The notes under the pieces: model-generated
What the model saw: the letters and a program-made list of their open reading frames with translations, nothing else
Databases searched by the model: none
What the model was told of the DNA's origin: nothing
Made by a program: the position numbers and the translations under genes
In this document: one piece after another, positions 3,101-28,410 of the stretch
Layout: each line of letters starts with the position of its first letter
Position numbering within the stretch: the stretch's first letter is position 1
Origin: a virus
Strand: one strand, 5' to 3'
Length of the DNA: 30,949 bases
Virus record (IMG/VR): IMGVR_UViG_3300010157_004183
Location: 1 to 30,949 of that record

Positions 3101-6100
3101 GAGACGGGAAAAGAAATTGCTAATACGGCTCAACAATCTAGACAAAGCAACGAGGGACAATCTGCGGCACTAAAAGAATGGCAAGATTTTCAAGTCTCAC
3201 TACAAGATTCTTTAGTCAGTTTGGCAAAAAACATTAGAGGGTTAAATGAATCTTTTGCTGATATGGGTCGCACTCTTAATAAGCAATTATTGGATGCTCA
3301 GAACGCTTTAAAAGAGGCTCAAGCCAATCTTTCAGCTAATCAATTTAAAGTCGATGTTCAAGGCATTTTAACACCCGGTCATAGTGGTTTCTTTAGGGAA
3401 TTAGAAGGTATCATCAATGATTATGTAAGCCAAATTAACCAGATTAATTCTCAGTCTAATCGGACACAATCGGACAGATTATCGGTTCAAGACCAAACCA
3501 TACAACTAACTAGAGAGATTAGAAACCTAGAAGAACAAAGAGTAGAAGCTAGTCGTGAGATGGCTAAATCTCTTTTAGGAACTGCTAGTTTAATAAATGG
3601 TCAATCTGATTTACAAGTTAAAACTTGGGAAGCAATTACTAGTAAAATTGGTTCAGCAGGAATATACGCTGGTAAAATTGCTGATATTTTTGCAGGGATT
3701 TTAGGGAAGTTTCAAGGTAAAAAAGAACCGACTAATCAAGAATTGAGCGGGTTAGCACCTAATCAAAAAGGACAAATCTCTACAGGTAATATATCACCTT
3801 TATCTGTGCCTAGTAACGCAAGTAATCCACCTATTTCTTCATCTAAAACTAATGGGATTCCACCTGAAATTCGTGCTTTTGAAGAGATAATTGGGTTTGC
3901 TGAGACTAGGGATTATAAAGATCCCTATAAAGCTGGACCTGCTTTTATGCCCCAATATAAATTGAACTTAAATCAATTTCCCACGGATTTAAAATCAAAT
4001 TGGAATTATGGCAGATACCAAAATGATAATGAAGATGCTCAATATTACGGGTTTAAAAAGAAATATAAAGACCTTTCTCCAGCTAATCAGGATAAAATGA
4101 CTGCTGATATCCTATCTGATGAGCAGAGATTCCCAGGTGGTTTAGAAGCTATTAAAAAAGCTTTTAGCACTCGTAAACTTGAAGATTTACAGAAAGCTTT
4201 TGATATCTACAATAAGTTTTGGGTAAGTCTTCCGGGTGGATCTCAAAATGGTAATGGTCAAAATATTGAGGCTAATCTTCCCAATCTAGCTAAAGTGGGA
4301 TATAGAGCAATTAATCAATTACAATCATCTCTCCCCGTTCCCGCTTTACCGCCAATTACACAACCAACATCCATTATTAATAAGCCTACAAAACCTATTG
4401 AACCAGATGAAGGTTTAGGTCAATTTAACGATAATAGACAGGGGCAAGTTCCCGTAACTCCTGTACAAACTGAAACTCAACAAATTATTTTTACACAACC
4501 TGCATTACCGATTGAGCAATTTAATCAACCTTTTAACCTGCCTGCTATTCCTTCACAAACTAGCGTATCTCCCACTATTACTTCTTCAGAATTTAGCGAT
4601 AAAGTTCAAAAAATAGAATCTTTAAACTATCAACGAAATGATGTAGAAAAGAAAAATATTGTTGTACAAACTAATTTGGCTGGTCAAGATGCTTCTAATA
4701 AATTAGAAAATCAGCGACTTGATACACTTCAAAAAATCAGAGAAAATCAACGCCAATATTTAGATATTGCTAGTAGAAGCGTTAATGAACTTCAAAATAT
4801 TTTAGATAAAGCCAAAGGATATCAAACTTACCAAGAGCAGATTAATCAAGCAGCTAGAGAAACTACTCAAGAATACAAAGCACAAAAAGAATCTATAGAA
4901 GATAATATCACTCAATTTGAAAGAATGCGTGATTCAAGTACTGAAAATATTAAAACAATACAACAACAAATAGATTTATTAACAAAGCAAGGAAAACCAA
5001 TACCTATAGAATTAACTACTGATATTAAAACAGGTCAAGAACTCAATAAACAAATTGACCAATTAATAGGAAAAGATGGAAACTCAGGTTTATTACAACA
5101 AAGATTAGGTGCAGTTCAACAAGCTGAACCTATTGCAAGACAATCTACACAATCTCAAGAAACTTTAAATAAAGCTATTCAAGCACAACAAGAACTTACT
5201 AAAATTAGATCTGATTTTGTACAAGCCAAAATTGAAAACGGTGATGATCCTTTAGGTGCATTAGGACAAGAAGCGGCAATTCTGCAAGCTAAATTAGATA
5301 ATCTTGCTCGCACTAAAGATGCTGAAGAAATGATCCGAGGACTTGGTGGTGAAGCGGTTTTAGGTGCAGCTAAAGTAAAAGAACTACGTGATACAGTAGA
5401 CCAAACTAACCAATTAAAATTGGAACAAGCTCAGAGAAACGGTAATAAATTTGAGGCTAATTTCCAATCAGGCTTTGAGCAGTTATTTAATGGCAGTACA
5501 ACTCTGTTTGGTCGTGGTGGTGGCAAAAGAGAACTAGAACTATTGTCTGAATCAGTAAAAACTATGTTTTCAGGACTTACCGAACAGGCTAGTAAGGCTG
5601 CTTCTAAATTTATCACTTCATTAATATTTGGAAATCAAGGTACAGGTGGATCGCCTATAGATGCAATAGGAGGGATTAATGTTCGTCAAGCAATTAGTGG
5701 TAATGCCGAACCAATTAACAAGATTGCTCCTCAAAATTTATCTAATAATCCTTTAGGTTTAACTAGTTCTCTACAAGGTATTGATTTTAGTAATGTTAAT
5801 GATTTAACTACAAATCTTACTAATCTTTCTGTTCTTGACTTTACTAATGCCAATAGTTTTGTAGATACTTTATTAGGAGTCGGGAACACAACAAGCCCCA
5901 CTGGAAAACAACCTCAAAATCAAGATATTCTTAGCAATTGGTTAGGGATTAATAATCAAACTTCTTCTGCCCAAACAAATGGAACCGGCAATCCTAACGA
6001 AAATCCTATACAGGCTGCCATGGTGGCGCTTACTGGTAATAAAGATTTTTCTAATACCAATCCTATTTCTGCTGCTTTGGCTGCTTTGGGCAATAATTCA

Positions 6101-8655: not shown

Positions 8656-9084
8656 TTATTTTTGCCAAAGTTGACGTGACAATCCAGCAAGCGCACAGGC
8701 TCTTCTTAATGCCATGGCAGAAGCATTACTAGCTGGATCACCATAGCCGCTACAAGCAAGTAACTCTTCACCTGTTGCACTGAAACTAACTAAACGGTCT
8801 TCTCCATAAAAGGTAAGCTCCCCAATTACGATAAGTCGGGCGTTTACTTTGCGAGTAATCGGCTCACGTGCTTCTGTAACTGTTTGAATTTGGCTTGTGG
8901 CTTGAGTCTCACGGACTTCTTTGATAGTCCATGCCCAGTTGCCCAGTCCTGCACGGGCATCTAACAAATCTGCATAATCTGCCCAAGAAATAAACTGAAT
9001 TTCTGTACCTCCTTGTTTACGAGTACTAATTAAACTTTTAGGAACAGGTTGACGTAACCGTGTAAGGATTTCCGCAATTTTCAT
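8656..9084 (-). CDS. Rad52/22-family single-strand annealing protein (142 aa)
   Basis: This is a likely phage recombination protein that anneals complementary single strands during replication or repair. The C-terminal block GYGDPASNASAMALRRACA (residues 113-131), followed by AGLSRQLW, is the hallmark of the Rad52/Rad22 core. FISWADYADLLDARAGLGNW near residues 31-50 and a central beta region (ARLIVIGELTFYG) fit the same fold. At 142 residues it is a minimal core without a C-terminal extension. Its ATG overlaps the stop of the upstream 81-residue gene (ATGA). No exonuclease or SSB gene is visible beside it, so partners may lie elsewhere in the genome. Confidence 0.82.
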   Translation of the reverse strand: MKIAEILTRLRQPVPKSLISTRKQGGTEIQFISWADYADLLDARAGLGNWAWTIKEVRETQATSQIQTVTEAREPITRKVNARLIVIGELTFYGEDRLVSFSATGEELLACSGYGDPASNASAMALRRACALAGLSRQLWQK

Positions 9085-9329
9085 TACATGGACTCCTGTG
9101 TAGCAAGTTGGTGTAAAACTTTTTGCTGTGCTTCATGAGCGAGAAGTTTGGCTTCTCTGAGCACAGCAAATTTTGATCGTACAAAAACTTTTTCGGAAGG
9201 CATACCGTTTTTATAAACAACGGTAATATTCCACCCTATCCGTGCTTTAGTTATTAGGACCACACCAAGTCCTAAATTTTGAACAATATCTGTTTCTGGA
9301 GCAAACAGAGTAGAATTAGAATCAGACAT
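9084..9329 (-). CDS. Hypothetical protein (81 aa), first gene of the Rad52-like operon
   Basis: This is the first gene of a four-gene minus-strand operon. It is preceded by a GAGGT ribosome site about 9 nt before ATG 9329, and its stop overlaps the start of the annealing-protein gene (ATGA). The protein reads as a short beta-rich N-terminal half (GLGVVLITKARIGWNITVVY) followed by an Ala/Lys-rich helix. I do not recognise a family. The tight coupling suggests a role in DNA metabolism, but this rests on context only. Confidence 0.7.
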   Translation of the reverse strand: MSDSNSTLFAPETDIVQNLGLGVVLITKARIGWNITVVYKNGMPSEKVFVRSKFAVLREAKLLAHEAQQKVLHQLATQESM

Positions 9330-9396: not shown

Positions 9397-9406
9397 TATA
9401 TTTGTT

Positions 9407-9425
9407 ATTATAAGAAAGTTATAAT
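9407..9425. promoter_or_regulatory. Candidate palindromic operator overlapping a -10 box
   Basis: ATTATAA (9407-9413) and TTATAAT (9419-9425) form a perfect 7-5-7 inverted repeat immediately ahead of the Cro/C1-type gene. The right half contains TATAAT (9420-9425), a consensus -10 sequence on the plus strand. The symmetric left half gives TTATAAT on the minus strand toward the Rad52 operon. This layout suits autoregulation and control of the divergent operon by the neighbouring repressor. It is inferred from position and symmetry only. Confidence 0.5.
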
Positions 9426-9429
9426 CATC

Positions 9430-9705
9430 ATGCAAGAGTTTAAACGTACGATTTTATGGAAAATCTTAAAAATTGTGAAAAAAGTATCTTTTAGAATAAA
9501 TGAATTAATGAATGCAAGAGGTTTAACTATAAATAAAATGGCTATTGAAACAGGACTTACTCGCCAGACGATTAGTCGGCTTTGTCACAATCGATCACAC
9601 AATGTAAGTTTTGAAACCTTAAGCATACTATTGGATTATTTTAATTGTGATATCGGTGATCTATTAAAAGTGGATGAGATCACCGAGATAGAAATCAACA
9701 AGTAG
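9430..9705 (+). CDS. Cro/C1-type (XRE, HTH_26-like) transcriptional regulator
   Basis: The protein contains a helix-turn-helix of the Cro/C1 type: RINELMNARGLTINKMAIET, then GLTRQTISRLCHNRS as the turn and recognition helix, and FETLSILLDYFNCDIGDLL as the closing helices. The frame is open from an ATG at 9352, but those first 26 residues overlap the hairpin and operator candidate, so the ATG at 9430 is preferred (91 aa). A TATAAT only 5 bp upstream of that ATG would make the transcript nearly leaderless, which leaves the start open to doubt. It probably controls the divergent minus-strand genes. Its last 42 bp overlap the 3' end of the converging winged-helix gene. Confidence 0.78.
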   Translation: MQEFKRTILWKILKIVKKVSFRINELMNARGLTINKMAIETGLTRQTISRLCHNRSHNVSFETLSILLDYFNCDIGDLLKVDEITEIEINK

Positions 9706-9936
9706 TAAGATATTAACATCTCTTTTTGCTATTTCAGTACGCCATTTGACGAACTTAAAATCTAGTCCTAGCTTAGATTTGATATCTCTTTGAGCGTTTG
9801 TACGACTAATACTAAACTCTTCAGCTATTTGTGGAATAGCTACACCAAACTCCCCATCTTCAGACAAAAGACCTTGAATTGTGTATAGTCCAATTTGAAC
9901 ATCTGCTATGGATGCTTTTTTGATATCATTAGTCAT
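9664..9936 (-). CDS. Winged-helix/HTH-like regulatory protein (90 aa)
   Basis: From ATG 9936 the product carries a helix-turn-helix-like segment, VAIPQIAEEFSISRTNAQRD, followed by KLGLDFKFVKWRTE, which could be a wing or an antirepressor-like tail. The frame extends upstream to 9990, but that part lies in a large hairpin, so the internal ATG is preferred. It converges on the Cro/C1 gene and shares 42 bp of coding sequence with it on the opposite strand. That layout raises the possibility of antisense control between two regulators. The exact family is not recognised. Confidence 0.6.
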   Translation of the reverse strand: MTNDIKKASIADVQIGLYTIQGLLSEDGEFGVAIPQIAEEFSISRTNAQRDIKSKLGLDFKFVKWRTEIAKRDVNILLLVDFYLGDLIHF

Positions 9937-9963
9937 GTTGATACTTTTTGATAGAGTTAATAC

Positions 9964-10002
9964 ACAACACAGGAGAAAGTTTGACAGCATCTCCTGTGTT
10001 GT
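9964..10002 (-). terminator. Strong hairpin at the end of the tail-tip operon
   Basis: ACAACACAGGAGA (9964-9976) pairs perfectly over 13 bp with TCTCCTGTGTTGT (9990-10002) around a 13-nt loop. On the minus strand it lies 31 bp past the end of the tail hub gene (stop at 10034). There is no good T tract on that side (GTATTAAC follows), so it could be a processing or stability hairpin rather than a classic terminator. Confidence 0.6.
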
Positions 10003-10033
10003 TAAAACAAAACTTGATTAAAAAATCAACAAA

Positions 10034-11929
10034 TCACAAAGGTAATGCAAGTTGTTGTCCTTTACCAACATAAGTACTGGCTTGGCTAAGGCGAATATAT
10101 GGCGGTGTACCTGAGCCATTAAAAACACCATTAAAATCAGCCATCATTTCTGCTGGAGTATAAACAAATGATTCAGTATTAGTTAAACGAGTATTAATTA
10201 AATTGGTATTAGACGGATCATAAGATTGAAACAAATACTGAGCAATTTCACCAGGTGCATAACCTATATCGGTGTAATCTTTTAAACCACCATTAAGATA
10301 AGTTCTGCGAATCCAATTTATTGTGATTGTGCTATCGGGATTAAATACAATATAAGGGTCTACAACGCTATATGGTTTAACCGAAACAGCTTGATAAGTA
10401 AAAGAAGTTGGATTAGTAATATCAGTTTCATCTACTCCGGCTGGTGCTAATTTATATAAAATAGTTTGATTAATATAAGATTGTTTAGCTGTTAATTTAA
10501 AAAGATTTTGTAATAATACAATTTGTTCACCGTTAGTGTGTTTATTCATTGCCCATTCAGTGCCACGCAATCCTCTAATAAGGTAAGAAAGTTTATATTG
10601 ATTAGCTCCTAATAACGTTACATCTCTAAAAGCAATTATTTCATCACCTACTAAAATTAAATTAGTAGATGCCAAAAATTGATCTGTGGTGCAATTATTT
10701 ATTACTTTGCTACTAGACACCACAAAACTATTAGAAGTATCAATAATACTTGCAGTGCCATTAGGCATAGTTCCAACTAATTCACCCACGGCATTACTAT
10801 TAGCTACATTAAGCGCAAAACTATATGTAGTGCCACCATCAGTAGAATAAAAAACCTGTCCTGTTGTAAAATTTGAATCAGCTTTAACTGCAAAATAAAT
10901 AGTAAATGGTGGATCATTATCTGAAATCAAAGGAATATCTAAAGGAATTAATGTTGCGTTTCCTACAACAGGAGGATATGTTATTGACGGTGTTTGTGGT
11001 ATGGCATTATTGGTAACTTGATTGGGCCCAAAAAACGCACTATTGTTATAAATATCGTATGATTGAACATGACTTTGGTTATTATCAGGAACTTGAACTA
11101 CCATTACTATTTGGAAATTAGTTCCTATATTTGGATTTAATCCGGGTTGTCCAGGATATAAATTGTTAGAATTTGTAGATACTAAACTTGTATCTAATGT
11201 AGATAAAAATTGACTAGGATCAAAAGTAGGTTGTGAACCATATACCACACCTGATCCAGCTGGGCCTAACAAAGGTATAAAAGTTCCGTTATTGCCCAAC
11301 ACACCCATAGAAATGCCATTACCGCTATTACCTTGAACTATTTGAAGATTATCAGCACTTCCTACAAAAGGTATAGAGGTTCTAGTATAAACAATTGAAG
11401 GTGTAAAATAATTTCCTGCAACACTTAAATATGTTTTAGTATTAGTATAAACTACAAATACATGATATAAATAAATAGTACTATATTGACTATTAATATA
11501 TTGATTGCCTTCAATTTGAACTATAAAATTTTCAGTTAAAGTAATTTTAGAAAGTTGTAAAGATAATTGGCGAGTACCAATATCTAAAGCAATAACATTA
11601 CCTAGTTTTAATTGCCCATACCAACAAGGAAGCAAATTAATTCCAGAATAAGTATTTCGTTGAACAGCAATTTCTGAAATTAATCTATTGGCAATTCCTA
11701 AAGTTTCACCCGGATTGCTTGATAAACGTGTTTGAATAGCCAATGGATTATTATTTACAGCAACAGGGTTTCTGGCATAAATAGTCCAAGTATTGTGTGA
11801 ATTCCCTAAATTAGTCATACTAATTTGCACTTCCGAGGGAAGTTCTCTAGCGTGAAGAATTTTTTCTTTAAATAAAGTACCAGATTGAGAATTATTTGCA
11901 ATTCTAGTTCCTAAATTACTTAAAGCCAC
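10034..11929 (-). CDS. Tail hub protein, C-terminal part (out-of-frame continuation of the upstream hub gene)
   Basis: This frame gives 631 residues from a GTG at 11929, but it is open without an ATG back to 12001. The 24 extra codons read LVSREEEDGTISFLQKNRPS and four more. That segment matches what normally follows the end of the upstream gene in Phage-tail_3/GTA gp15-like hub proteins, where a 'R-E-x-D-G-x-I-x-F' strand occurs mid-protein. The later beta-rich sequence includes a segment with DEIIAFRDVTLLGANQYKLS and LIRGLRGTEWAMNKH, typical of the C-terminal part of such tail proteins. A one-base minus shift at the T7 run joins both parts into about 934 residues. The piece is probably not made from its own GTG, since no ribosome site precedes it. 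Confidence 0.8.
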   Translation of the reverse strand: MALSNLGTRIANNSQSGTLFKEKILHARELPSEVQISMTNLGNSHNTWTIYARNPVAVNNNPLAIQTRLSSNPGETLGIANRLISEIAVQRNTYSGINLLPCWYGQLKLGNVIALDIGTRQLSLQLSKITLTENFIVQIEGNQYINSQYSTIYLYHVFVVYTNTKTYLSVAGNYFTPSIVYTRTSIPFVGSADNLQIVQGNSGNGISMGVLGNNGTFIPLLGPAGSGVVYGSQPTFDPSQFLSTLDTSLVSTNSNNLYPGQPGLNPNIGTNFQIVMVVQVPDNNQSHVQSYDIYNNSAFFGPNQVTNNAIPQTPSITYPPVVGNATLIPLDIPLISDNDPPFTIYFAVKADSNFTTGQVFYSTDGGTTYSFALNVANSNAVGELVGTMPNGTASIIDTSNSFVVSSSKVINNCTTDQFLASTNLILVGDEIIAFRDVTLLGANQYKLSYLIRGLRGTEWAMNKHTNGEQIVLLQNLFKLTAKQSYINQTILYKLAPAGVDETDITNPTSFTYQAVSVKPYSVVDPYIVFNPDSTITINWIRRTYLNGGLKDYTDIGYAPGEIAQYLFQSYDPSNTNLINTRLTNTESFVYTPAEMMADFNGVFNGSGTPPYIRLSQASTYVGKGQQLALPL

Positions 11930-13238: not shown

Positions 13239-15173
13239 TTAATTAGGTACTATAGGACTACTAATATAAAAATCATTGTTTGGCATAAAATGCCCTTTTG
13301 ATGGTATACCACCAAAATTAATAGCATTATTATATAGTTGACTACAAGTAGAAAATTGTTTATCACATCCTCCTTGTAAAGTTACAGTATCACCTGCTGA
13401 CATTTGAAAAAAAGCAGGAATGTTTAAAGTTATTAAAGTAGTATTGGTTGCAGATTGATATACATTATCAAATATCATAAATGATAAATTTTCATTAGCG
13501 CCACTAGTAAATTGACAATAACCAGCCATTAATTGATGGTCAGGTATTGAAACATTATCAACCATTATAAATCGTGGTGTATTGGAAAATCCTGTAGCAT
13601 TGACAATAGTAGCTGTGTAAGCATAAAGAGATTTATTAACAGTACATTTACTATTTCCAAAATTGTAAGGACAATACGGAGAAGTTTTAACTGAAACAGG
13701 TTGTTTTAAAAGCGTTGCAGCTTCACTTAAATTTTCCATAGTGTAATTAGTATCACTGCTAATAATTTCCCCAACTACGCCAGTTTGCTCAACAATAGCT
13801 CCTAATAAAGTAGAGGGTGGGTTAGCGTAATCAATTACTGCAACAATAATTTTTGCGTTATCAAAAAAACCTGACGCTAGTTCCGCTTCTGTAATTTGTG
13901 AACTTTTAATTACAGTTTTTATTTCCTGATTATTAACAGCCCATGACAAATTTTGTTCTAACGCTGAAGGTTCAAATGCAGTGCTGGCATCATAAACTTG
14001 ATTATCTATTGTGATATCCCGATCGGCTGTTGTAAAACCATATGTTATTGATGAACTAATAGTTGGAACTGTGATGTTACATACCCTAGCTAATGTCATT
14101 AAAGGATTAGAAAGAATATCAGAAGGGGATTGTAAAGGATGATCTAATGTGGGAGTAGTGTTACCTCGATAAAGTTTAATTTCCAAAGGATTTAATTGAT
14201 ATACAAAATTAGTAGAAGTTAAACTGTAAGTTATTTCTTGAGTATTAAATCTAGCTAAAACAGTTTGTCCAGTCAAAGCTGTATCAGTGTAATAAAATTG
14301 CGCCCCGTTAGCTTTATTAGCTAGCCAAAATGTCAATAAAATGTTTAATTGGTCTTGGCTAAAAGTTTTTCTTTGACCAAATATTTGTCTAAAAATAGGT
14401 ATTTGTAGTCTTGTAGTTCTGTACCTAAAACCACTACTAAGAGTAATTATTTCAGTATCATAATCTGAATAATCTTCATTTTGAGCAAAATAATCTAATC
14501 CTGCGGGAAAAGAAACTACATTATTGCCCGTAGCAGGAGTGTCTTGCAAAACATCCAAAGGGTAAATGTAAGGTTTTTGTTTAATCTCTTTTAAAAGCAA
14601 TTTATTTACTTCAAAAGTACTTGGACTATTTACTCTGTATGTAAATTCATCACTATCAAAAGTAACAGGTACATAAAAACTAAAAATAGCTTTAATTAAA
14701 TTAGAACTAGATGATGGTGCTGTAGTAAAACTTATTTGCCCAACATCTAACAATGTCCAATTAGTTAATGTTGTTCCACCTTGGTTAATGCTTGATAAAA
14801 CTTTTACCTCAGTAATTGCCCGATAATGGATATTATTACCCACTTGATATTTTTTAATAATCTGAAAATTTTTTCTAGAACCATCTGGAGCCGGATATAA
14901 AAAACCTTGTTTATTGCTAAGGTAGTCGCTTTTATCTTCATACAAAAAACTATAATTAGATCCTTTGGCTAAATCATAAAAATTAGCAATATTAGTAACA
15001 TCAGCTTTAGTAAGAATTTTTCTGGCAAAATTAAAAGATCTAATAGGGTCTTGCCATTTTACAATTCTTTGTTCTACTCCAGAAGAATTGATTAACACCA
15101 AATTAGAAAAAGCTAAATTGATAGCGATACCAACACTTTCAACAATAGGAAAAGCTTGTGTAATATCAACCAT
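13239..15173 (-). CDS. Fused DUF2460-DUF2163/BR0599 tail-tip protein (644 aa)
   Basis: Residues 1 to about 90 look like DUF2460 (GTA gp12-like): an AFPIVESVG start, VEQRIVKWQDPIRSF and SNYSFLYEDKSDYLS. A second DUF2460-like half covers about residues 220-330 (AGLDYFAQNEDYSD, QRKTFSQDQLNILL). From about 365 onward it resembles DUF2163, and it ends with the BR0599 signature GGCDKQFSTCSQLYNNAINF followed by GG. These domains are normally two proteins (GTA gp12 and gp13); here they are one. Paired cysteines (CPYNFGNSKC and GCDKQFSTC) may bind a metal, as in related hub proteins that hold an Fe-S cluster. The gene is packed between LamG and NlpC/P60 genes with 1 bp or less of spacing. Confidence 0.85.
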   Translation of the reverse strand: MVDITQAFPIVESVGIAINLAFSNLVLINSSGVEQRIVKWQDPIRSFNFARKILTKADVTNIANFYDLAKGSNYSFLYEDKSDYLSNKQGFLYPAPDGSRKNFQIIKKYQVGNNIHYRAITEVKVLSSINQGGTTLTNWTLLDVGQISFTTAPSSSSNLIKAIFSFYVPVTFDSDEFTYRVNSPSTFEVNKLLLKEIKQKPYIYPLDVLQDTPATGNNVVSFPAGLDYFAQNEDYSDYDTEIITLSSGFRYRTTRLQIPIFRQIFGQRKTFSQDQLNILLTFWLANKANGAQFYYTDTALTGQTVLARFNTQEITYSLTSTNFVYQLNPLEIKLYRGNTTPTLDHPLQSPSDILSNPLMTLARVCNITVPTISSSITYGFTTADRDITIDNQVYDASTAFEPSALEQNLSWAVNNQEIKTVIKSSQITEAELASGFFDNAKIIVAVIDYANPPSTLLGAIVEQTGVVGEIISSDTNYTMENLSEAATLLKQPVSVKTSPYCPYNFGNSKCTVNKSLYAYTATIVNATGFSNTPRFIMVDNVSIPDHQLMAGYCQFTSGANENLSFMIFDNVYQSATNTTLITLNIPAFFQMSAGDTVTLQGGCDKQFSTCSQLYNNAINFGGIPSKGHFMPNNDFYISSPIVPN

Positions 15174-15174
15174 A

Positions 15175-15933
15175 TTAATAATTAAGCCCTAATCCTTTAT
15201 TAAATAAATAACTTATTTCTGTAGAAGAAAGCATCCTAGACCACAAACCAATTTGTTTAATCCAACCATTCCAGTAAATTCCAGATGTTCCAGGTCCACT
15301 ATAACCATTAAGAGCGCCAATCCATAAAGGTGAATTACTTGGACTAACAACAGTACCTGTATAAGTAGTAGAAACTGTAGCTAAAGCTGTAGAATTATTT
15401 GCATTATAAATATTTAGATACATTGTTTTATTACTTAATTTATGTTGTACTATGATTAAATACCAATTATTAGTAACTATTGAAATATTTGACGATAATT
15501 CATTATAAGAACTGCCGTTAAATAATTGCCAACTAATTCTATTATTATTTGTTGGATCATAATATATATCCCATTCACGTCCAGAAGAAACTACATCTTT
15601 TGCAATTATCCAATTATAATTAGAGCCACCAGCTAATGATAAAGGATTAACCCAACAAGATATAGCAAAATCACCATTTGTAAGCTGTAAAGAACTATTA
15701 GATGGTATTGTTAAATATTGATTTGTACCATTAAAAAAACAGCCATCAACAGGATTACCAATTGCAGAATTTTGTGAAGTTAAATTATTAGAATTTACTG
15801 AATCATATCTAATTCCTGATGATTCAGTAAGATTCCAATAAGCGTTTAAATTAGTAAGTAAAGATGTATAAGTTTTACTAATTGTAGAATCAGGTGATGG
15901 ATAAATACCACCAATAAGATTAATTGTTGCCAT
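15175..15933 (-). CDS. LamG/concanavalin A-like tail protein (252 aa)
   Basis: The protein is predicted to bind carbohydrate or host surface structures. Residues 30 to about 245 form a single Laminin_G_3/ConA-like jelly-roll: GCFFNGTNQYLTIP, FAISCWVNP, a WYLIIVQHK strand, and the closing IKQIGLWSRMLSSTEISYLF segment. The family is common in cyanobacterial phages and surface proteins. It lies 1 bp from both the fibre gene and the DUF2460-DUF2163 gene, so it is probably part of the adsorption apparatus at the tail tip. Confidence 0.85.
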   Translation of the reverse strand: MATINLIGGIYPSPDSTISKTYTSLLTNLNAYWNLTESSGIRYDSVNSNNLTSQNSAIGNPVDGCFFNGTNQYLTIPSNSSLQLTNGDFAISCWVNPLSLAGGSNYNWIIAKDVVSSGREWDIYYDPTNNNRISWQLFNGSSYNELSSNISIVTNNWYLIIVQHKLSNKTMYLNIYNANNSTALATVSTTYTGTVVSPSNSPLWIGALNGYSGPGTSGIYWNGWIKQIGLWSRMLSSTEISYLFNKGLGLNY

Positions 15934-20326: not shown

Positions 20327-21514
20327 ATGGCAAGACAATTAGGATTATTTGACGATCAACGTGCAACTTCACAAGCAGCTATTCAAGAAACCATAGATTC
20401 ACTTCAAACCTATGGCAAGCATTACAAGAATTGGGCTATTGCTTATTCAGGTGGAAAAGACTCTACAACTTTAGTCACATTAATTCTTTACCTTTTAGAA
20501 ACAGAGCAAATACCCAAACCAGAATCTTTAACAGTACTTTATGCAGACACAAGACTAGAGCTTCCACCTTTGCATTCTGGAGCAATGGCAATTCTGGAAA
20601 AGGTAAAAGAACGGGGATATAAAACGCAAGTTGTACGAGCAGAATTAGACAAAAGATTTTTGGTGTATCTTCTTGGTCGGGGAGTGCCAGCGCCCAATAA
20701 CTCAACATTGCGATGGTGTACAAATCAAATCAAACTTGAACCCATGAAGCAGGCACTATTACAACTTTCTCAAGATAATGAAAGATTTTTGATGCTGACT
20801 GGTGTGAGAGTCGGGGAAAGCGCATCTAGAGATCAGCGAATTTCTACAAGTTGCTCAAAAAATGGTGCTGAGTGTGGGCAAGGTTGGTTTCAAAACGATC
20901 TAAATGGCATATCAGATACTCTTGCTCCGTTACTACACTGGAGAGTTTGCAATGTCTGGGATTGGTTAATGCTAGATGCTCCTCAATTAGGTTTTGATAC
21001 AGAGCTTTTATGTGATGTCTATGGCGGTGATGATGCAACAGAAATTAATGCCAGAACAGGTTGTATAGGTTGCCCTCTGACTGATAAAGACATGGCATTG
21101 GAGAACCTTGTCAAAGATTCTAAATATAAGTATCTGCGTCCACTTTTAGGAATGAAACCTATTTTTAGAGAAACTCGGAGGTTAGATAAGCGATTAAAAA
21201 AAGTCATTGAATATAAAAAAGATGGCAGTATTGGCACAAACCCCGGTAGATGTGGTCCTGTTATTTTAGAATTTCGCTTGGAATTACTAGAAAGAATTTT
21301 AACAATTCAATCTGAAATAAATATTGCAGCAAAAGAATTGGGTAAATTGCCCGTTGATATTTTGAATACAGAAGAAGAAGCCAGAATTAGAGAATTAATT
21401 GCATTAGGTACTTATCCCAACAAATGGTATGGAGATGAGGTTTTAGGCGATTCAATTGTCGAACGCTGGTATGAAGATGGTTCTGTACAATATCCTTTGT
21501 TTTCGGTAATTTAA
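20327..21514 (+). CDS. PAPS reductase/DndC-like ATP-pyrophosphatase family protein (395 aa)
   Basis: The protein activates a substrate with ATP through a PP-loop, SGGKDSTTLV at residues 41-50. RWCTNQIKLEP (C131), LTGVRVGESASRDQR, VCNVWDWL and GCIGCPLTDKD (C246, C249) follow in the order known from DndC, the Fe-S sulfurtransferase of DNA phosphorothioation. C176 and C183 may add cluster ligands. No dndB, dndD, dndE or cysteine desulfurase is nearby, so a DNA-sulfur role cannot be claimed; nucleobase or tRNA thiolation and use of PAPS are alternatives. The start has a GGAG box 6 nt ahead. It is followed after 1 bp by the next gene, so the two form an operon, with a second PP-loop enzyme 5 kb downstream near the cas genes. 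Confidence 0.82.
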   Translation: MARQLGLFDDQRATSQAAIQETIDSLQTYGKHYKNWAIAYSGGKDSTTLVTLILYLLETEQIPKPESLTVLYADTRLELPPLHSGAMAILEKVKERGYKTQVVRAELDKRFLVYLLGRGVPAPNNSTLRWCTNQIKLEPMKQALLQLSQDNERFLMLTGVRVGESASRDQRISTSCSKNGAECGQGWFQNDLNGISDTLAPLLHWRVCNVWDWLMLDAPQLGFDTELLCDVYGGDDATEINARTGCIGCPLTDKDMALENLVKDSKYKYLRPLLGMKPIFRETRRLDKRLKKVIEYKKDGSIGTNPGRCGPVILEFRLELLERILTIQSEINIAAKELGKLPVDILNTEEEARIRELIALGTYPNKWYGDEVLGDSIVERWYEDGSVQYPLFSVI

Positions 21515-22329: not shown

Positions 22330-23385
22330 ATGACTGTTATCCAAAGGCTTAAATATCAAAGACCCGGAACTGTAGAGCATGGTTTATTTGAAAGACCTGA
22401 CTCAATTAATGAACCATTGTATGTTGTGACAACTATTTTTAATTCTGAAAGATTTAGAAGTAGATATTCACTTTATGAAAAATTTAAAAAATATATAAAG
22501 GATTCAGGTGCCATACTTTATACAGTCGAATTGGCATATGGTGAACGAGCATTTGCTGTAACTGAATCAGGTAATCCATATCATATTCAATTACGTACAG
22601 GAGATATTTATGACGTTGGAGATAAATTATGGTTTAAAGAAAATATGATTAATTTGGGAGTTCAGCGACTTCCATCAACTTGGAGATATTTTGCATGGAT
22701 TGATGCTGATATACAATTTGCTAGACCTGATTGGGTAGGTGAAACTTTACACCAATTACAAACTTATCATGTTGTTCAAATGTTTAGCGAGGCTTATCAG
22801 CTTACACCTAATTATAATGCACAACATAAATATCAAGGTTTTGCCCATTGGTATAACAATCTCTATAATGCAGATAGTTTAAAGGGCAATGTTTCTAAAT
22901 CATGTTATTCTAAAGAACTTATTAATGAAAAAAACAAATCAGATTGGTCACATCCGGGTTTTGCATGGGCAATGAGAAAAGATGCTTTTGATCATTTAGG
23001 AGGATTACTTGATTGGGCAGGTTTGGGATCTGCTGATTGGTATATGTGCCGAGCTTTTGCAGGATTTTATGATATTGATTATGTAGCCAAAAGCCTAGGT
23101 TCTTCAGGATGTAGAATGCTTACTGAATGGCAAAATAGATCTGAAAAATACATCAAAAGAAATATAGGATATATTGAAGGCGCTCTTTTACATTACTGGC
23201 ACGGTCAAAGAAAAGATAGAAATTATAAAGGGAGAGAACAATTTTTGATTGAAGCAGGATTTGAACCGGATTTAGATTTAAAACGGGATTGGCAAGGATT
23301 ATGGCAATTAACAGACCGTTCACAACAATTAAGAAATGGTATTCGCAAATATTTTAAACAGCGTAATGAGGATAATTTAGAATAA
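22330..23385 (+). CDS. Glycosyltransferase-like protein of phage type (351 aa)
   Basis: The protein is predicted to move a sugar from a nucleotide-sugar donor to an unknown acceptor. The N-terminus YVVTTIFNSERFRSRY resembles the start of GT-A folds. WIDADIQFARPDW holds a DxD metal/nucleotide-sugar motif (residues 125-127), HPGFAWAMRKDAFDHLGGL is the usual acceptor-side loop, and LLHYWHGQRKDRNY near residue 285 is typical of phage glycosyltransferases. Acceptors could be phage DNA, virion proteins or host surface. The next gene begins 1 bp after its stop, so they are coupled. Confidence 0.8.
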   Translation: MTVIQRLKYQRPGTVEHGLFERPDSINEPLYVVTTIFNSERFRSRYSLYEKFKKYIKDSGAILYTVELAYGERAFAVTESGNPYHIQLRTGDIYDVGDKLWFKENMINLGVQRLPSTWRYFAWIDADIQFARPDWVGETLHQLQTYHVVQMFSEAYQLTPNYNAQHKYQGFAHWYNNLYNADSLKGNVSKSCYSKELINEKNKSDWSHPGFAWAMRKDAFDHLGGLLDWAGLGSADWYMCRAFAGFYDIDYVAKSLGSSGCRMLTEWQNRSEKYIKRNIGYIEGALLHYWHGQRKDRNYKGREQFLIEAGFEPDLDLKRDWQGLWQLTDRSQQLRNGIRKYFKQRNEDNLE

Positions 23386-23386
23386 A

Positions 23387-23902
23387 ATGCTTGGATTTTT
23401 AACAGAAGAAAAACCTTTAGCTCTAGCAAGTGCTGTTACTTATTGGGCATTCAGATGCAGAGATAAACAACGCTCTCCAGCTATGGGCATGAAAACTTGG
23501 GAATATTTACAATCATCAATTGAAAATGCTGCTATCCCTTCTAGAAGCATTAATGATTATTTAGTTCATTTAAGTAAAAAACTAATTGTGCCAACTTTTC
23601 AACCTAAAGAATGGCGGCGTTTATTTGACGCTAAACAGGTAGTTTTAAGAGCTTCTAGGCTTGAAGATGGCAGCGTAGGTGATTTACTAGAAGTGACCAC
23701 AGATCAAGCCGTCAATTGGCAATCTTGGGAACCTATTCTCAAGCAATGGGGGGTAGAATTTGGCATTACTGAGAGGCATATACTTAAAGAATGCTTAACT
23801 AAATCCCAAATGGTTGCACTTTATTGCAGGCTTAAACACGAAGAAGATAAGTTATTATCAGCATACGAAAAAGAAGAAGAGGTAGAAACAATAGATGTCT
23901 AA
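23387..23902 (+). CDS. Hypothetical protein (171 aa) upstream of the cas module
   Basis: ATG 23387 lies 1 bp after the glycosyltransferase stop, and the 3' end overlaps the next small gene by 8 bp, so it is inside one transcription unit. The N-terminal 80 residues are helical (ALASAVTYWAFRCRDKQRSP). The middle is mixed (WRRLFDAKQVVLRASRLEDG), and the C-terminus is a charged helix. It has only two cysteines and none of the Csf1 zinc-finger pattern. Its position before csf2 makes it a candidate for a missing complex subunit, but sequence gives no support and a glycosyltransferase partner is as likely. Confidence 0.65.
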   Translation: MLGFLTEEKPLALASAVTYWAFRCRDKQRSPAMGMKTWEYLQSSIENAAIPSRSINDYLVHLSKKLIVPTFQPKEWRRLFDAKQVVLRASRLEDGSVGDLLEVTTDQAVNWQSWEPILKQWGVEFGITERHILKECLTKSQMVALYCRLKHEEDKLLSAYEKEEEVETIDV

Positions 23903-24133: not shown

Positions 24134-24209
24134 AACAAACTTGTTTGTAATACTTAAATTACTGTTCATTTTAACTCTTGTAACTTTTTGGTTAATTCAA
24201 CTTTGGTAA
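24120..24209 (+). CDS. Putative 29-residue single-pass membrane peptide
   Basis: ATG 24120 overlaps the end of the frameshifted gene, and its TAA (24207-24209) lies 2 bp before the csf2 ATG. The peptide is a short basic head (MTKFKTN) followed by about 20 hydrophobic residues with aromatic ends (LFVILKLLFILTLVTFWLIQ). This is the shape of a single transmembrane helix. The tight spacing on both sides suggests a translated gene, perhaps coupling ribosomes into csf2. A chance AT-rich ORF cannot be excluded. Confidence 0.45.
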   Translation: MTKFKTNLFVILKLLFILTLVTFWLIQLW

Positions 24210-24211
24210 TT

Positions 24212-25378
24212 ATGCAACACTATAACCCTGATCAACGTCACAGAATCACCTTTCATGTAGTCTTAGAAACTCTTAGTCCACTTTCCCATATTGGCGAGGC
24301 TGTAGGCAACCAATCTAACCTCAAGACAATTACAATTACCGATATTGAAGGGCAGCCTTCACAAGTATTCTGTCTATCTGGTAACTCAATCAGAAACCGT
24401 ATCTTAAGGCGTGTGGGAATAGATGCCATGCTTGAACGTCTTAAAATACAAGTGTCACCCATATTGCACCATGTACTTTTTTGTGGTGGTGCATTAGACG
24501 GAGGAACGGCTAATAATCTTGAACTTGATAAAAAGATTAGACAGTTTCTTCCTCCTATTTCCCTCTTGGGCACAGCTAAAGCTAAAGGTGTATTTGGTAG
24601 TAAAGATGCTCAGATGATTCCTGGCAGAATTAATGTAGGCGATGCAATGTTAGTTTGCTATGAATCTGCGCTCAACATCTACAACACTTTTGAACCAGCA
24701 ATAGCCCTAGATGCTATTCAAGGATTATCAGAAATTAATCAAGCTAAAAAAGATTTAGAAGAGGCAAGAATTAATCAATTTTTATCAGGCACACAAAACA
24801 AACTAGATGACTCACAATATAAAGAAAAACTTAAATACTGGCTGCCATATTTGCAAGAAAAATTGAGACCATATTCTCACTGGCTTACCTACAATCAAAA
24901 AACTAGACGTGATAGTCACCATGACCCCAACTTAGTCAAACATTTACTTCCAGCAGCCATCAAAGAAGGTCAACAAAGTTTGTTTGGGGCTACTGAAGAA
25001 AAGCCAGATAAAGAAATTAAAGAAAAATCAAACCAAATGATTATGGGAAGTTGGTTAATCCAAGCAGGGGCTAAACTCTATTCTCGTTGGGATGCTTTTG
25101 TCACTGATGTTGAAGAGGGGTTTATGGCAGATGCTATCCTCAAGTGGAGTAGTTCTCCGTATGTAGGTGGTCAAGCAAATACAGGTTGTGGCAAGGTTGC
25201 TGCTAATATATACTATTCGTCTGAAGGTAAATCAGGAAACTGGATGTTGGTTGAAAATGGCACTCAAGTTTTAGGCGAAAGAGCAGCAGAAAAACATGAG
25301 AGATATGATGAGTATTTGGATAAATATGAAGAATATCTTAAAGATAATACTAGTGAAGTAAGAGGACTATTAGGATGA
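24212..25378 (+). CDS. csf2: Csf2 (Cas7-like) backbone subunit of a type IV CRISPR effector
   Basis: The frame can begin at TTG 24188, but ATG 24212 is preferred (388 aa). The RAMP fold is supported by VFCLSGNSIRNRILRR at residues 52-67, FCGGALDGG at 90-98, LPPISLLGTA near 113-122 and GRINVGDAM near 138-146. Late in the protein are NQMIMGSWLIQAGAKLYSRW and SPYVGGQANTGCGKV (GGQ at 319). That ordered set matches Csf2 of type IV systems, where Csf2 polymerises along the CRISPR RNA. A C-terminal charged helix follows. It is the first recognisable cas gene of the module, followed by a Cys-rich ORF and csf3. Confidence 0.82.
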   Translation: MQHYNPDQRHRITFHVVLETLSPLSHIGEAVGNQSNLKTITITDIEGQPSQVFCLSGNSIRNRILRRVGIDAMLERLKIQVSPILHHVLFCGGALDGGTANNLELDKKIRQFLPPISLLGTAKAKGVFGSKDAQMIPGRINVGDAMLVCYESALNIYNTFEPAIALDAIQGLSEINQAKKDLEEARINQFLSGTQNKLDDSQYKEKLKYWLPYLQEKLRPYSHWLTYNQKTRRDSHHDPNLVKHLLPAAIKEGQQSLFGATEEKPDKEIKEKSNQMIMGSWLIQAGAKLYSRWDAFVTDVEEGFMADAILKWSSSPYVGGQANTGCGKVAANIYYSSEGKSGNWMLVENGTQVLGERAAEKHERYDEYLDKYEEYLKDNTSEVRGLLG

Positions 25379-25421: not shown

Positions 25422-25607
25422 ATGCACAAATCTTGTACAAATTGTAAACATTTTCATATATGGTCACCGCAATTTTGCAAAATGAATGAACCTGTTTTTA
25501 ATGAACTATTAGATTGTGTATCAACAGCTAAACAATGTAAATCTTGGAGTTTAAATGATCCCTCTACAAATCACAGCATATTTAGCCGCACCTTTAGCAG
25601 TTACTGA
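25422..25607 (+). CDS. Small Cys-rich protein between csf2 and csf3 (61 aa)
   Basis: C5/C8 in CTNCKHF, C19, C32 and C39 form a CxxC...C...C...C array of a small zinc-binding protein type seen in phages. It overlaps the csf3 start by 53 bp in another frame, which is deep for a real gene, so the last residues may be fortuitous. It occupies the place where a zinc-finger subunit (Csf1) could stand, but it is about a quarter of Csf1 length and I see no specific match. Confidence 0.5.
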   Translation: MHKSCTNCKHFHIWSPQFCKMNEPVFNELLDCVSTAKQCKSWSLNDPSTNHSIFSRTFSSY

Positions 25608-26262
25608 CAATTTCTCCCCTGCTATTGAAGGAATAATTGAATACTCGATTAGAGAATACCTAGGATTGCTTGACCCAAATCCAATCAAGTTAGAAGACAT
25701 TACACCGGTTACGCTTCCTTTACAACAGCATCTTAAAGGTTTTTATTATTGCAGTTCACCACACTACCTAGTAGAGCGAGAATCACAATCTAGATACAGA
25801 AAAAGGTGGGATTATCAAGAAAGACATTTAGATTGGGGCAATAAGAAAGCCAAATTTAGTGGAAGTGATGGACAATTCAAATCTTATGATCTTCCTTTAT
25901 TCCTGAGACACACTACCCGTATTGATTGGTTTGTTGTCGGAAACTTTGATGAGATTCTATCAGCATTAGATAGAGTGACACACCTAGGCAAAAAACGCTC
26001 TCAGGGATTCGGATTGGTCGAGAAATGGGTAGTAAAATCTATTGATCAAGATTGGTCACTGTGGGGCAATAAAGGGCAAATTATGCGTCCTATTCCAGCC
26101 AGTATTTATCAGGATGTATTTCACAAACCACTTCCACCTGACCTAGTTCTGACGGCTTGGCGATTACCATCTTGGCACGTAGAAAACCAGACCTTGTGTG
26201 TGGTGCCAAAAGGAAATGTACAACAAAAAATTGAAAGACCTGTATTGAGAAAACTTGGATAA
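25555..26262 (+). CDS. csf3: Csf3 (Cas5-like) subunit of a type IV CRISPR effector
   Basis: This 235-residue protein has the Csf3 pattern: an N-terminal LQITAYLAAPLAV strand; ESQSRYRKRWDYQE, then the FSGSDGQFKSYDLPL region near 101-115; TRIDWFVVGN, FDEILSALDRVTHL; and the glycine-rich GKKRSQGFGLVEKW at 145-158. Csf3 caps the 5' handle of the CRISPR RNA and contacts Csf2. No cleavage residues are expected where a separate Cas6 exists. The ATG 25555 overlaps the Cys-rich ORF, and the CysH-like gene follows 26 bp later in the same direction. Confidence 0.82.
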   Translation: MIPLQITAYLAAPLAVTDNFSPAIEGIIEYSIREYLGLLDPNPIKLEDITPVTLPLQQHLKGFYYCSSPHYLVERESQSRYRKRWDYQERHLDWGNKKAKFSGSDGQFKSYDLPLFLRHTTRIDWFVVGNFDEILSALDRVTHLGKKRSQGFGLVEKWVVKSIDQDWSLWGNKGQIMRPIPASIYQDVFHKPLPPDLVLTAWRLPSWHVENQTLCVVPKGNVQQKIERPVLRKLG

Positions 26263-26288: not shown

Positions 26289-27008
26289 ATGGATATAGAA
26301 CAAGAAAAACAATATTTTAAAGACTACGCTAAATTATCTGGCTTTAAAACTAAAGTAGAAAAAGCCAAAGAAACAATTAAAACAGCATTAGCAATAGATA
26401 AAGCTTATATTGGTATCAGTTGGGGTAAAGATTCTATTGTGCTCTTGCATCTTTGCCAACAAATTCAACCAGATATTTTAGCAATTTGTTATAGTTCTAT
26501 TGAACAAGAATATGTGGCGAATTATGCTGAGACAATTTCTAGATATTGTAAAACATTTACTCCCAATTATTTGGATATTAAAGCAAAAGAAGGAAATGCT
26601 GAGACTAATGACACAGTTAAAGACCGTATATCAGCAGTAATTGATTATCCTGTAGCTTTCGTGGGATTAAGAGCAGAAGAAAGTAAACCTAGGTTTATTA
26701 CCTTAAAAAAATACGGTTTAATTCATCAATACACATCAGGAAAATACAAAGGACAATATAGGATTGCTCCTTTGGCTTGGTGGACTTGGCAAGATATTTG
26801 GGCTTACATATTTTCTAATGATCTGCCATATCTTGATCTATACGATAAAATAGACCGACAATGGGGCAGAACTACAGCCCATGCTAAATATTTTTATTCT
26901 TCTAATAAAGATACAAGGTGGCAAAAAACTTCACTGGAAACAATGAAAGCTGTAAATCCGGTATTATATAATTATCTAATTTATAACGTACCTGAGGCTT
27001 TTACATAA
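26289..27008 (+). CDS. CysH-like PP-loop protein next to type IV cas genes (239 aa)
   Basis: The PP-loop is SWGKDSIVLLHL at residues 44-55 (SxGKDS, with Trp replacing the usual second Gly). VGLRAEESKPR and APLAWWTWQDIWAYIFSNDL follow, as in phosphoadenosine-phosphosulfate reductase-fold proteins. The C-terminal ECGxH-type catalytic Cys motif of true CysH is absent, so sulfate reduction is unlikely. CysH-like genes are a conserved but unexplained companion of type IV-B systems, which supports a link with csf2/csf3. Its stop overlaps the next start as TAATG, so it is translationally coupled to the Coq4-like gene. Confidence 0.8.
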   Translation: MDIEQEKQYFKDYAKLSGFKTKVEKAKETIKTALAIDKAYIGISWGKDSIVLLHLCQQIQPDILAICYSSIEQEYVANYAETISRYCKTFTPNYLDIKAKEGNAETNDTVKDRISAVIDYPVAFVGLRAEESKPRFITLKKYGLIHQYTSGKYKGQYRIAPLAWWTWQDIWAYIFSNDLPYLDLYDKIDRQWGRTTAHAKYFYSSNKDTRWQKTSLETMKAVNPVLYNYLIYNVPEAFT

Positions 27009-27784
27009 TGGTTATTGATTTTCTAAAAAGAATTTTAACTGATGACAATTTGTTTCAACAAATTATTGATTCCGATGACAAAATAAAAACTATTCAAAAT
27101 ATTGAATCTAATATTGATTTAGGTGAGTTATTTGAACCTGCTGAATCTTGTCCACCTGATAAATTATGGGCAATTTTTAGCCGTATTAGGTTTGAATATG
27201 TGCGACCGGTTAAGTTTAAATATATTCCTGCTACTTGTGTTGTGTCTATGGAAAAAATGCCTAGGATTTTTCCTTTTATGCCTGAAGAGGATTTAATGAT
27301 AGGTTTAAAAACTTATTTTTTAGAATCATTAAATCCTAAACAAGAAAATGTAGCTTTATTTCAAAAATTTTCAAAATGTGATGAAAATACAGTAGGGCTT
27401 ACTTTTTACGAATATTACAAAGCTAATAACGGACTAGATGCAATTGTAAAACCTTCTATGTTTCCTAGCAGTTATATTTTAATTCACGATTTTCACCACT
27501 TGCTTTTAAATGTTCCACCCACAACTAAAGGAGAATTAGAAGTATTAGCCTTTGAAGAAGGTTTGATCAATCGTACACAACCACCAATTTTATTACTGGA
27601 ACAACTTCAAATCTTTTTGGAATCTCAAGGGCATAAACTTTTTGAAACAGAAAGATTATGTAAAGCTTGGAATATTGGCGCTAATTGTCCGCAAGGTATT
27701 TTTGATGATTTTCCTTTATTGGACTATATCAACAAAAATTTAGACGAAACCCGAAAAGAATTAGGTGTTTCAAAATTAAACTAA
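27008..27784 (+). CDS. Coq4-like protein with intact HDxxHx11E motif (258 aa)
   Basis: H160-D161-x2-H164-x11-E176 (IHDFHH, then GELE) exactly fits the metal-binding motif of Coq4, a family that in ubiquinone synthesis organises the complex or processes the ring. Surroundings also fit: SSYILIHDFHHLLLNVPPTT before the Glu and LEVLAFEEGL after it. The rest of the protein is helical and has an unassigned N-terminal 130 residues. Phages make no ubiquinone, so its role here is unknown; cyanobacteria use plastoquinone. It is translationally coupled to the CysH-like gene (TAATG) and ends in a strong terminator before cas6. Confidence 0.72.
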   Translation: MVIDFLKRILTDDNLFQQIIDSDDKIKTIQNIESNIDLGELFEPAESCPPDKLWAIFSRIRFEYVRPVKFKYIPATCVVSMEKMPRIFPFMPEEDLMIGLKTYFLESLNPKQENVALFQKFSKCDENTVGLTFYEYYKANNGLDAIVKPSMFPSSYILIHDFHHLLLNVPPTTKGELEVLAFEEGLINRTQPPILLLEQLQIFLESQGHKLFETERLCKAWNIGANCPQGIFDDFPLLDYINKNLDETRKELGVSKLN

Positions 27785-27834: not shown

Positions 27835-28410
27835 ATGCTAATTGACGTTGTTTTTCCTGTATCTGGCATTAGTCTAAACGCTGACCATAACTATTATCTC
27901 TTTGCTGCTCTTTGCTATGCAGTGCCTGAATTTCACACGCTAGAAAATTTTTCCTTTAATACAATTAACGGAGTGCCAAACAACCAAGGTTTAATCAAAT
28001 TGGGCAATCAATCAATCCTCAGAATCAGACTGCCTTTAGAATCATACAAACTAGTTAATACACTAAGTAATAAAATATTAATTATCAATGGAAACCAAAT
28101 TGAACTAGGTTTACCATCTTATCAAACTATACAACCTAAACAAATTTTAACTAGTCGGATAGTCACAATCAAGGAAGCCTACACTGGTGAAAATTTTGTA
28201 AAAAGTTGTCAATTTCGCCTACAAAACTTAAATATTAATGCATCTCTATTGATTGCCAGACGATTGAGTGTAAGAATCACCAAGTGCCGACCTTATAATG
28301 TTGTTGGGTTTACTACAATATTAAAAAACTTAACTCCTGATGACTCTATAAAAGTTCAGGAGTTAGGTTTAGGTGGGAAAAGGCGTTTAGGTTGTGGAGT
28401 GTTTGTTTAA
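27835..28410 (+). CDS. cas6: Cas6 endoribonuclease of the Cmx6 (type I-MYXAN-like) family
   Basis: Cas6 cuts CRISPR precursor RNA within repeats. This 191-residue protein opens with DVVFPVSGISLNADHNYYLF, holding the usual candidate catalytic His (H18) in DHxYxL. It closes with the Gly-rich loop GLGGKRRLGCGVF (178-190), the clearest Cas6/Cmx6 signature. A central IELGLPSYQTIQP and SRIVTIKEA agree with the same family. The ferredoxin-like RAMP pair is complete, so it is not truncated. It stands behind a terminator and last in the module, with no CRISPR array in the window; it may process host or distantly encoded arrays. Confidence 0.85.
   Translation: MLIDVVFPVSGISLNADHNYYLFAALCYAVPEFHTLENFSFNTINGVPNNQGLIKLGNQSILRIRLPLESYKLVNTLSNKILIINGNQIELGLPSYQTIQPKQILTSRIVTIKEAYTGENFVKSCQFRLQNLNINASLLIARRLSVRITKCRPYNVVGFTTILKNLTPDDSIKVQELGLGGKRRLGCGVFV

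Follow-up and report, generated by a model that had tools for sequence, protein, structure and literature searches.

A divergent Coq4-like protein as the probable partner of one CysH class in a phage-borne, type IV-B-like CRISPR module

In type IV-B CRISPR systems, CysH is viewed as a PP-loop ATP enzyme rather than a sulfonucleotide reductase (PMC8175902), and its role in these systems is an open question in the literature (PMC8175902, PMC11656645). A viral example of type IV-B is that of Bathyarchaeia viruses (PMC10848311). Coq4 belongs to a different field. PMC12938788, citing Pelosi 2024, credits human COQ4 with oxidatively decarboxylating a prenylated aromatic acid, a quinone precursor, and also cites the long-held view of Coq4 as a scaffold in yeast. 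Crystals of the Nostoc Coq4 Alr8543 contained oleic acid and Mg (PMC9774615).

The locus described here lies in the window, a stretch of 30,949 bases that makes up the entire IMG/VR record IMGVR_UViG_3300010157_004183, which is classed as linear and is probably a fragment. Its tail proteins indicate a tailed phage. The module has the order cas11-csf2-csf3-cysH-coq4-cas6 (Table 1). Thus, the Coq4-like gene, which an earlier note had placed inside a CRISPR module, is indeed part of one, with cas11, csf2 and csf3 upstream of the cysH-coq4 pair and cas6 downstream. The start of csf2 was TTG at 24188 in the ORF listing, and the in-frame ATG is the one given in Table 1. Similar to type IV-B systems (PMC8175902, PMC7937560), the window possesses csf2, csf3 and cas11, and its cysH-like gene encodes no catalytic Cys. 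In addition, dinG, cas10 and recD were not found adjoining the csf genes, and a repeat scan of the window detected coding repeats only and no CRISPR array. Different from type IV-B systems, however, the window carries cas6, and the module is therefore called only IV-B-like. No csf1 was found by tblastn in the 30.9-kb fragment, and csf1 is present in the related contigs L005 and L014. The module also differs from type IV-B by its Coq4 partner and by a C-terminal part of CysH that is exchangeable between close relatives.

Table 1. Features of the type IV-B-like module in the window.
Feature	Position	Strand	Basis
cas11 (type IV small subunit)	23387..23902	+	PADLOC typeIV_Cas11, E 5e-10
csf2 (cas7)	24212..25378	+	PADLOC typeIV_Cas7, E 1e-43
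csf3 (cas5)	25555..26262	+	PADLOC typeIV_Cas5, E 2e-41
CysH-like PP-loop protein, 239 aa	26289..27008	+	PF01507 (PAPS_reduct), E 7e-15
cysH first 65 codons (PP-loop part), counterpart of the constant stretch of relatives	26289..26483	+	Alignment to relatives
Equivalent of the swappable cassette (rest of cysH from codon 66, with coq4)	26484..27784	+	Border inferred by homology
Coq4-like protein, 258 aa (long form)	27008..27784	+	Pfam PF05019, profile search, AF2 fold matches
HDFHH-x11-E metal-site motif	27485..27535	+	Translation; conservation in homologues
cas6 (Cmx6/MYXAN type)	27835..28410	+	PF09559, E 2e-52; TIGR02807 over cut-off

The S44, G46, D48 and S49 residues of the PP-loop motif (SxGxDS) in the CysH-like protein were invariant in 27 homologues, and G126, R128, E131, R135, W171, Y173, Y185 and R194 were also retained. 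Cysteines occur only at positions 56, 67 and 87 of the window protein and none of them was conserved among the 27 homologues, so the protein lacks the catalytic C-terminal Cys of bona fide CysH. An intact PP-loop without a conserved Cys is in line with the published view of the IV-B protein. The PAPS reductase-like proteins DndC and BrxP (BREX) of defence systems share the PP-loop and the PAPS_reduct domain with it, although the matches were weak and the window CysH differs from both in being short, in having no conserved Cys and in its tie to csf genes. The stop codon of cysH and the start codon of coq4 share TAATG and overlap by 1 nt, which confirmed in the sequence the translational coupling that had been proposed for this pair.

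The Coq4-like protein exceeded the cut-off of Pfam Coq4 PF05019 (27.6 bits, cut-off 22.9, E 2.2e-6), with a match confined to residues 159–256 of its 258 residues. Translation confirmed that the HDxxHx11E metal motif reported earlier is complete (H160-D161-F-H-H164-x11-E176). The motif, including H163 and G175, was invariant across seven phage homologues, all seven of which matched the Coq4 family at E ≤ 1. A profile of these seven homologues matched the solved structures PDB 6E12 (Alr8543; E 0.001) and PDB 3MSQ (Npun Coq4, Nostoc; E 0.049), and the motif was aligned in both. Given the invariance of the motif and the profile matches to solved structures, a chance motif was rejected. Moreover, the L042 homologue matched an annotated 'Coq4 family protein' of a Sphingobium plasmid (tblastn, E 8e-4). 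An AF2 model built from nine sequences (pLDDT 79.7, pTM 0.81) superseded a two-sequence model with a pLDDT of 49. Its top PDB matches in Foldseek were 6E12 (probability 0.99) and 3MSQ (0.97), and these matches were modest (E ~0.1, TM 0.36–0.49). By its family and profile matches, the window protein is a real but distant Coq4 relative, and the modest fold match marks it as a divergent member of the family rather than an orthologue. The likeness to Coq4 stated in the earlier note thus stood up in the family and profile comparisons, and the structure prediction that the note had proposed as a check did not speak against it. Similar to the Coq4 family, the protein has the HDxxHx11E site, C-terminal homology and a predicted helical fold. 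It differs in being only ~15% identical to the solved members, in the extra N-terminal region of its long form, and in having a phage gene that lies within a CRISPR module, where it is coupled to cysH. A viral fold library searched with the model and phage and plasmid collections searched by tblastn with the window protein returned no match.

Searches with csf2, csf3 and cysH yielded related loci, given here by L numbers, on three plasmids and about 40 viral contigs. A csf2 scan of genome contigs gave no match, and the survey of recurrence rests on the viral contigs and plasmids. Scans of viral and genome contigs with one or two sequences as query returned L005 only, or nothing. The recurrence asked about in the earlier note was found, with cysH followed by coq4 in seven other IMG/VR contigs (L005, L014, L015, L041, L042, L048 and L055), all but L005 being recovered via cysH or csf3 queries and not via coq4. 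L005 keeps the gene order of the window (53% identity for Coq4, 65–66% for CysH). The coq4 copy of L055 (around 9404–9877) may be broken, as a 178-nt deletion relative to L042 disrupts its frame, and cysH of this locus is intact. In addition, coq4 lies at the contig end, followed by cas6, in L062 and L064. Instead of coq4, a cupin gene is present in L002 (a Gloeobacter morelensis plasmid), L010, L016, L039, L044, L046 and L049, and L017 has a cupin in the partner slot that is inverted to the opposite strand. The L044 cupin had a single match among 72,556 plasmid records, at the Gloeobacter cysH locus. Finally, many IV-B-like loci have CysH without any partner gene, and the partner is therefore dispensable for the system itself.

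Nine loci (L039, L041, L042, L044, L045, L046, L048, L049 and L055) share one Cas backbone in which Csf3 is 95–100% identical. In this group, the first ~65 residues of CysH were also 94–100% identical (95–100% in pairs with different cassettes), whereas the rest was 32–41% identical between different cassettes, and the downstream gene varied among long Coq4, short Coq4, cupin or nothing. For instance, L042 and L044 were 99.3% identical over 2669 nt running through csf2 and csf3 and ending 195 nt into cysH, differed for about 0.8–1.3 kb after codon ~65 of cysH, and matched again from the start of cas6. The position of the border was the same in L039, L041, L045, L046, L048 and L049. In a second Cas backbone (L006 and L007, with Csf3 99% identical), CysH identity fell from 85% to 42% past the PP-loop; cysH of these two loci (9813–10550) has no partner gene. 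Assembly chimeras were rejected as the cause of the swaps, because the same alleles recurred in different samples with both flanks. Alignment of these loci showed a cassette slot between csf3 and cas6/csf1, with short Coq4, cupin or no partner as alternatives, and the exchange is clearly recombinational. The swap itself is visible in the relatives and not within the window.

Partner identity followed the C-terminal part of CysH. On the tree of this part, the partner label required five changes (minimum 4; mean of shuffled labels 13.6; none of 200 shuffles as low), a result that near-copies inflate, whereas 13 changes were required on the Csf3 tree from the same rows, the same as for shuffled labels. 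Several residues shared by CysH paired with long Coq4, such as T109, R113, A199 and L226, were absent from cupin-paired CysH, whose common feature was GD(H/R)VP or a close form. An exception was CysH of L015, which is paired with short Coq4 and grouped near the cupin class. Moreover, the ATG or GTG of the partner overlapped cysH by 1–26 nt in all 14 same-strand pairs examined. The comparison thus showed that coq4 and the C-terminal ~70% of cysH, as overlapping genes, behave as one cassette, in inheritance as well as in exchange. Such co-inheritance could be due to physical linkage alone if the interval between the conserved 5' part of cysH and cas6 were a hotspot that accepts any gene as cargo. 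The recombinational nature of the exchange and the unrelated GT2-like and MTase-like genes found in the slot would fit such a hotspot. This explanation is unlikely, since Coq4 and cupin partners keep their own CysH classes over diverged backbones (window, L005, L014 and L042 for Coq4; L002, L010, L016 and L044 for cupin), the gene overlaps are kept, and linkage less easily explains why it is the same two families that recur as partners. Coq4 also appears to be under purifying selection, with dN/dS of 0.04–0.27 estimated from 8 to 10 changes per pair.

The same pattern bears on the suggestion of host quinone interference in the earlier note, and on a reading of coq4 as an auxiliary metabolic gene that would tune host plastoquinone or ubiquinone. 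Homology to Coq4, the cyanobacterial origin of the solved homologues and the location of relatives on contigs rich in the cyanobacterial octamer HIP1 are consistent with that suggestion. HIP1 marks cyanobacterial DNA. The octamer GCGATCGC was abundant in many related contigs (up to 31 copies vs about 0.1 expected) and was absent from the window. Hosts of the relatives are likely cyanobacteria; for the window, this is only probable. Nevertheless, coq4 tracks the C-terminal type of CysH and overlaps cysH in each locus, cupins replace it at the same place, and no quinone gene was found near coq4 or elsewhere in the window. Quinone interference was therefore rejected as the leading view. It remains unsupported and, in our judgment, very improbable.

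Instead, we consider it probable that the gene encodes a divergent Coq4 that serves as a dedicated partner of one CysH class in a phage-borne IV-B-like module, and that the two form one exchangeable enzymatic unit. The proposal that a metal-site protein and CysH are paired in a modification step gained strength from the exchange of coq4 with the C-terminal part of CysH and from the cupins at the same place. In this unit, CysH would activate a substrate using ATP, as suggested by the intact PP-loop and the lack of a conserved Cys, and the metal site of Coq4 would perform or shield a second tailoring step, probably an oxidative or decarboxylating one. The first 65 residues of CysH may represent a shared part for ATP binding and docking, and the swapped part together with its partner would set the chemistry. 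Alternatively, a harmful CysH variant could be guarded by Coq4 in an antitoxin-like way, with Coq4 as a non-catalytic chaperone or inhibitor, as the overlapping, linked genes and the former view of yeast Coq4 as a scaffold (cited in PMC12938788) might suggest. Such a role is quite improbable, given a metal motif that is invariant over diverged copies and the broken coq4 of L055, next to which cysH stays open.

The enzymatic unit of CysH and Coq4 would most likely act on nucleic acid that the Csf complex binds, or on the DNA of the phage itself, thereby marked as self, and a small molecule would come next. In L040, a gene for a DNA N6/N4 methylase (8675–9289; PF01555, E 4e-8) occupies the cysH slot directly after csf3, and no cysH was found in this locus. 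Between an L006-type cysH and csf1/cas6, L052 has an MTase-like gene with DPPW (1212–1964; weak family match) and L037 has a GT2-like and a possible dioxygenase-like gene (3545–4698; weak matches). These neighbours are a weak pointer toward nucleic-acid modification, a target that rests on three loci, two of them with weak family matches. It is possible, and we propose only tentatively, that CysH and its partner act as a variable effector that is steered by the Csf complex and marks nucleic acid, so that a cassette swap would change the chemistry and leave the Cas backbone constant. The diversity of cassettes suggests an arms race, either with hosts or with rival elements. Alternatively, CysH with Coq4 or a cupin may make or destroy a small molecule, such as a signal, a cofactor or a host metabolite, which would be sensed or delivered by the Cas complex. 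Both Coq4 and cupins are metal proteins that work on small molecules, and relatives of CysH act on nucleotides and sulfate; the decarboxylation described for human COQ4 and the oleic acid and Mg in the Alr8543 crystal point the same way. The methylase and MTase-like genes of L040 and L052, and a module that has neither a transporter nor a sensor nor a nucleotide cyclase, speak against this alternative, which we regard as rather doubtful.

Cassette exchange occurs in bacterial loci that determine specificity, such as those for restriction-modification specificity subunits or toxin C-terminal tips. Similar to these, the loci in this study combine a constant N-terminal part with a swapped C-terminal part, a linked partner and near-identical flanks. 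Our literature search found no such cassette exchange for a CRISPR accessory gene. Among papers other than subscription papers and preprints, none was found that joined Coq4 with type IV CRISPR, or CysH and a cupin with it, which is weak evidence of novelty. On this evidence, a CysH-type, IV-B-like system with cas6 and an exchangeable CysH-partner cassette may be new. The cassette pattern suggests that, in some lineages, CysH works together with a defined partner gene. It also divides CysH into two parts, one constant and one variable, and provides natural swap experiments in near-identical backgrounds. The question of CysH function thereby becomes testable by expression, mass spectrometry and structure.

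Further genes were observed around the modules. In the window, a small Cys-rich (CxxC) ORF without a family match (25422–25607) overlaps the start of csf3, and the equivalent position in L005 is occupied by an unrelated ORF of 187 aa. A GT2-like gene (22330–23385; weak Pfam match, E 0.014) lies 1 nt upstream of cas11. A second, longer PAPS reductase-like gene is located at 20327–21514 (phrog_12882, E 6e-150), and its product shared 50–54% identity with Pseudomonas, Rhizobium and Microcystis phage proteins. One phage contig with a terminase (L014:12522–14393 and 14730–15500; L071:873–3304) combines a coq4-containing type IV module with a Cas12u2-like effector, which adjoins a CRISPR array of 11 repeats of 37 nt, and with FolE, QueD, QueE-like and QueC genes for 7-deazaguanine synthesis. 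The array was dropped as evidence for a guided type IV system, because it is directly downstream of the Cas12u2-like gene and may belong there; its spacers had no useful match among the collected loci. On the Gloeobacter plasmid, a PAPS reductase family gene is flanked by two methyltransferases. Finally, L034 (1280–8665) contains tandem modules, with three csf3 genes, two csf1 genes and a cysH gene from each of two classes in 7 kb.
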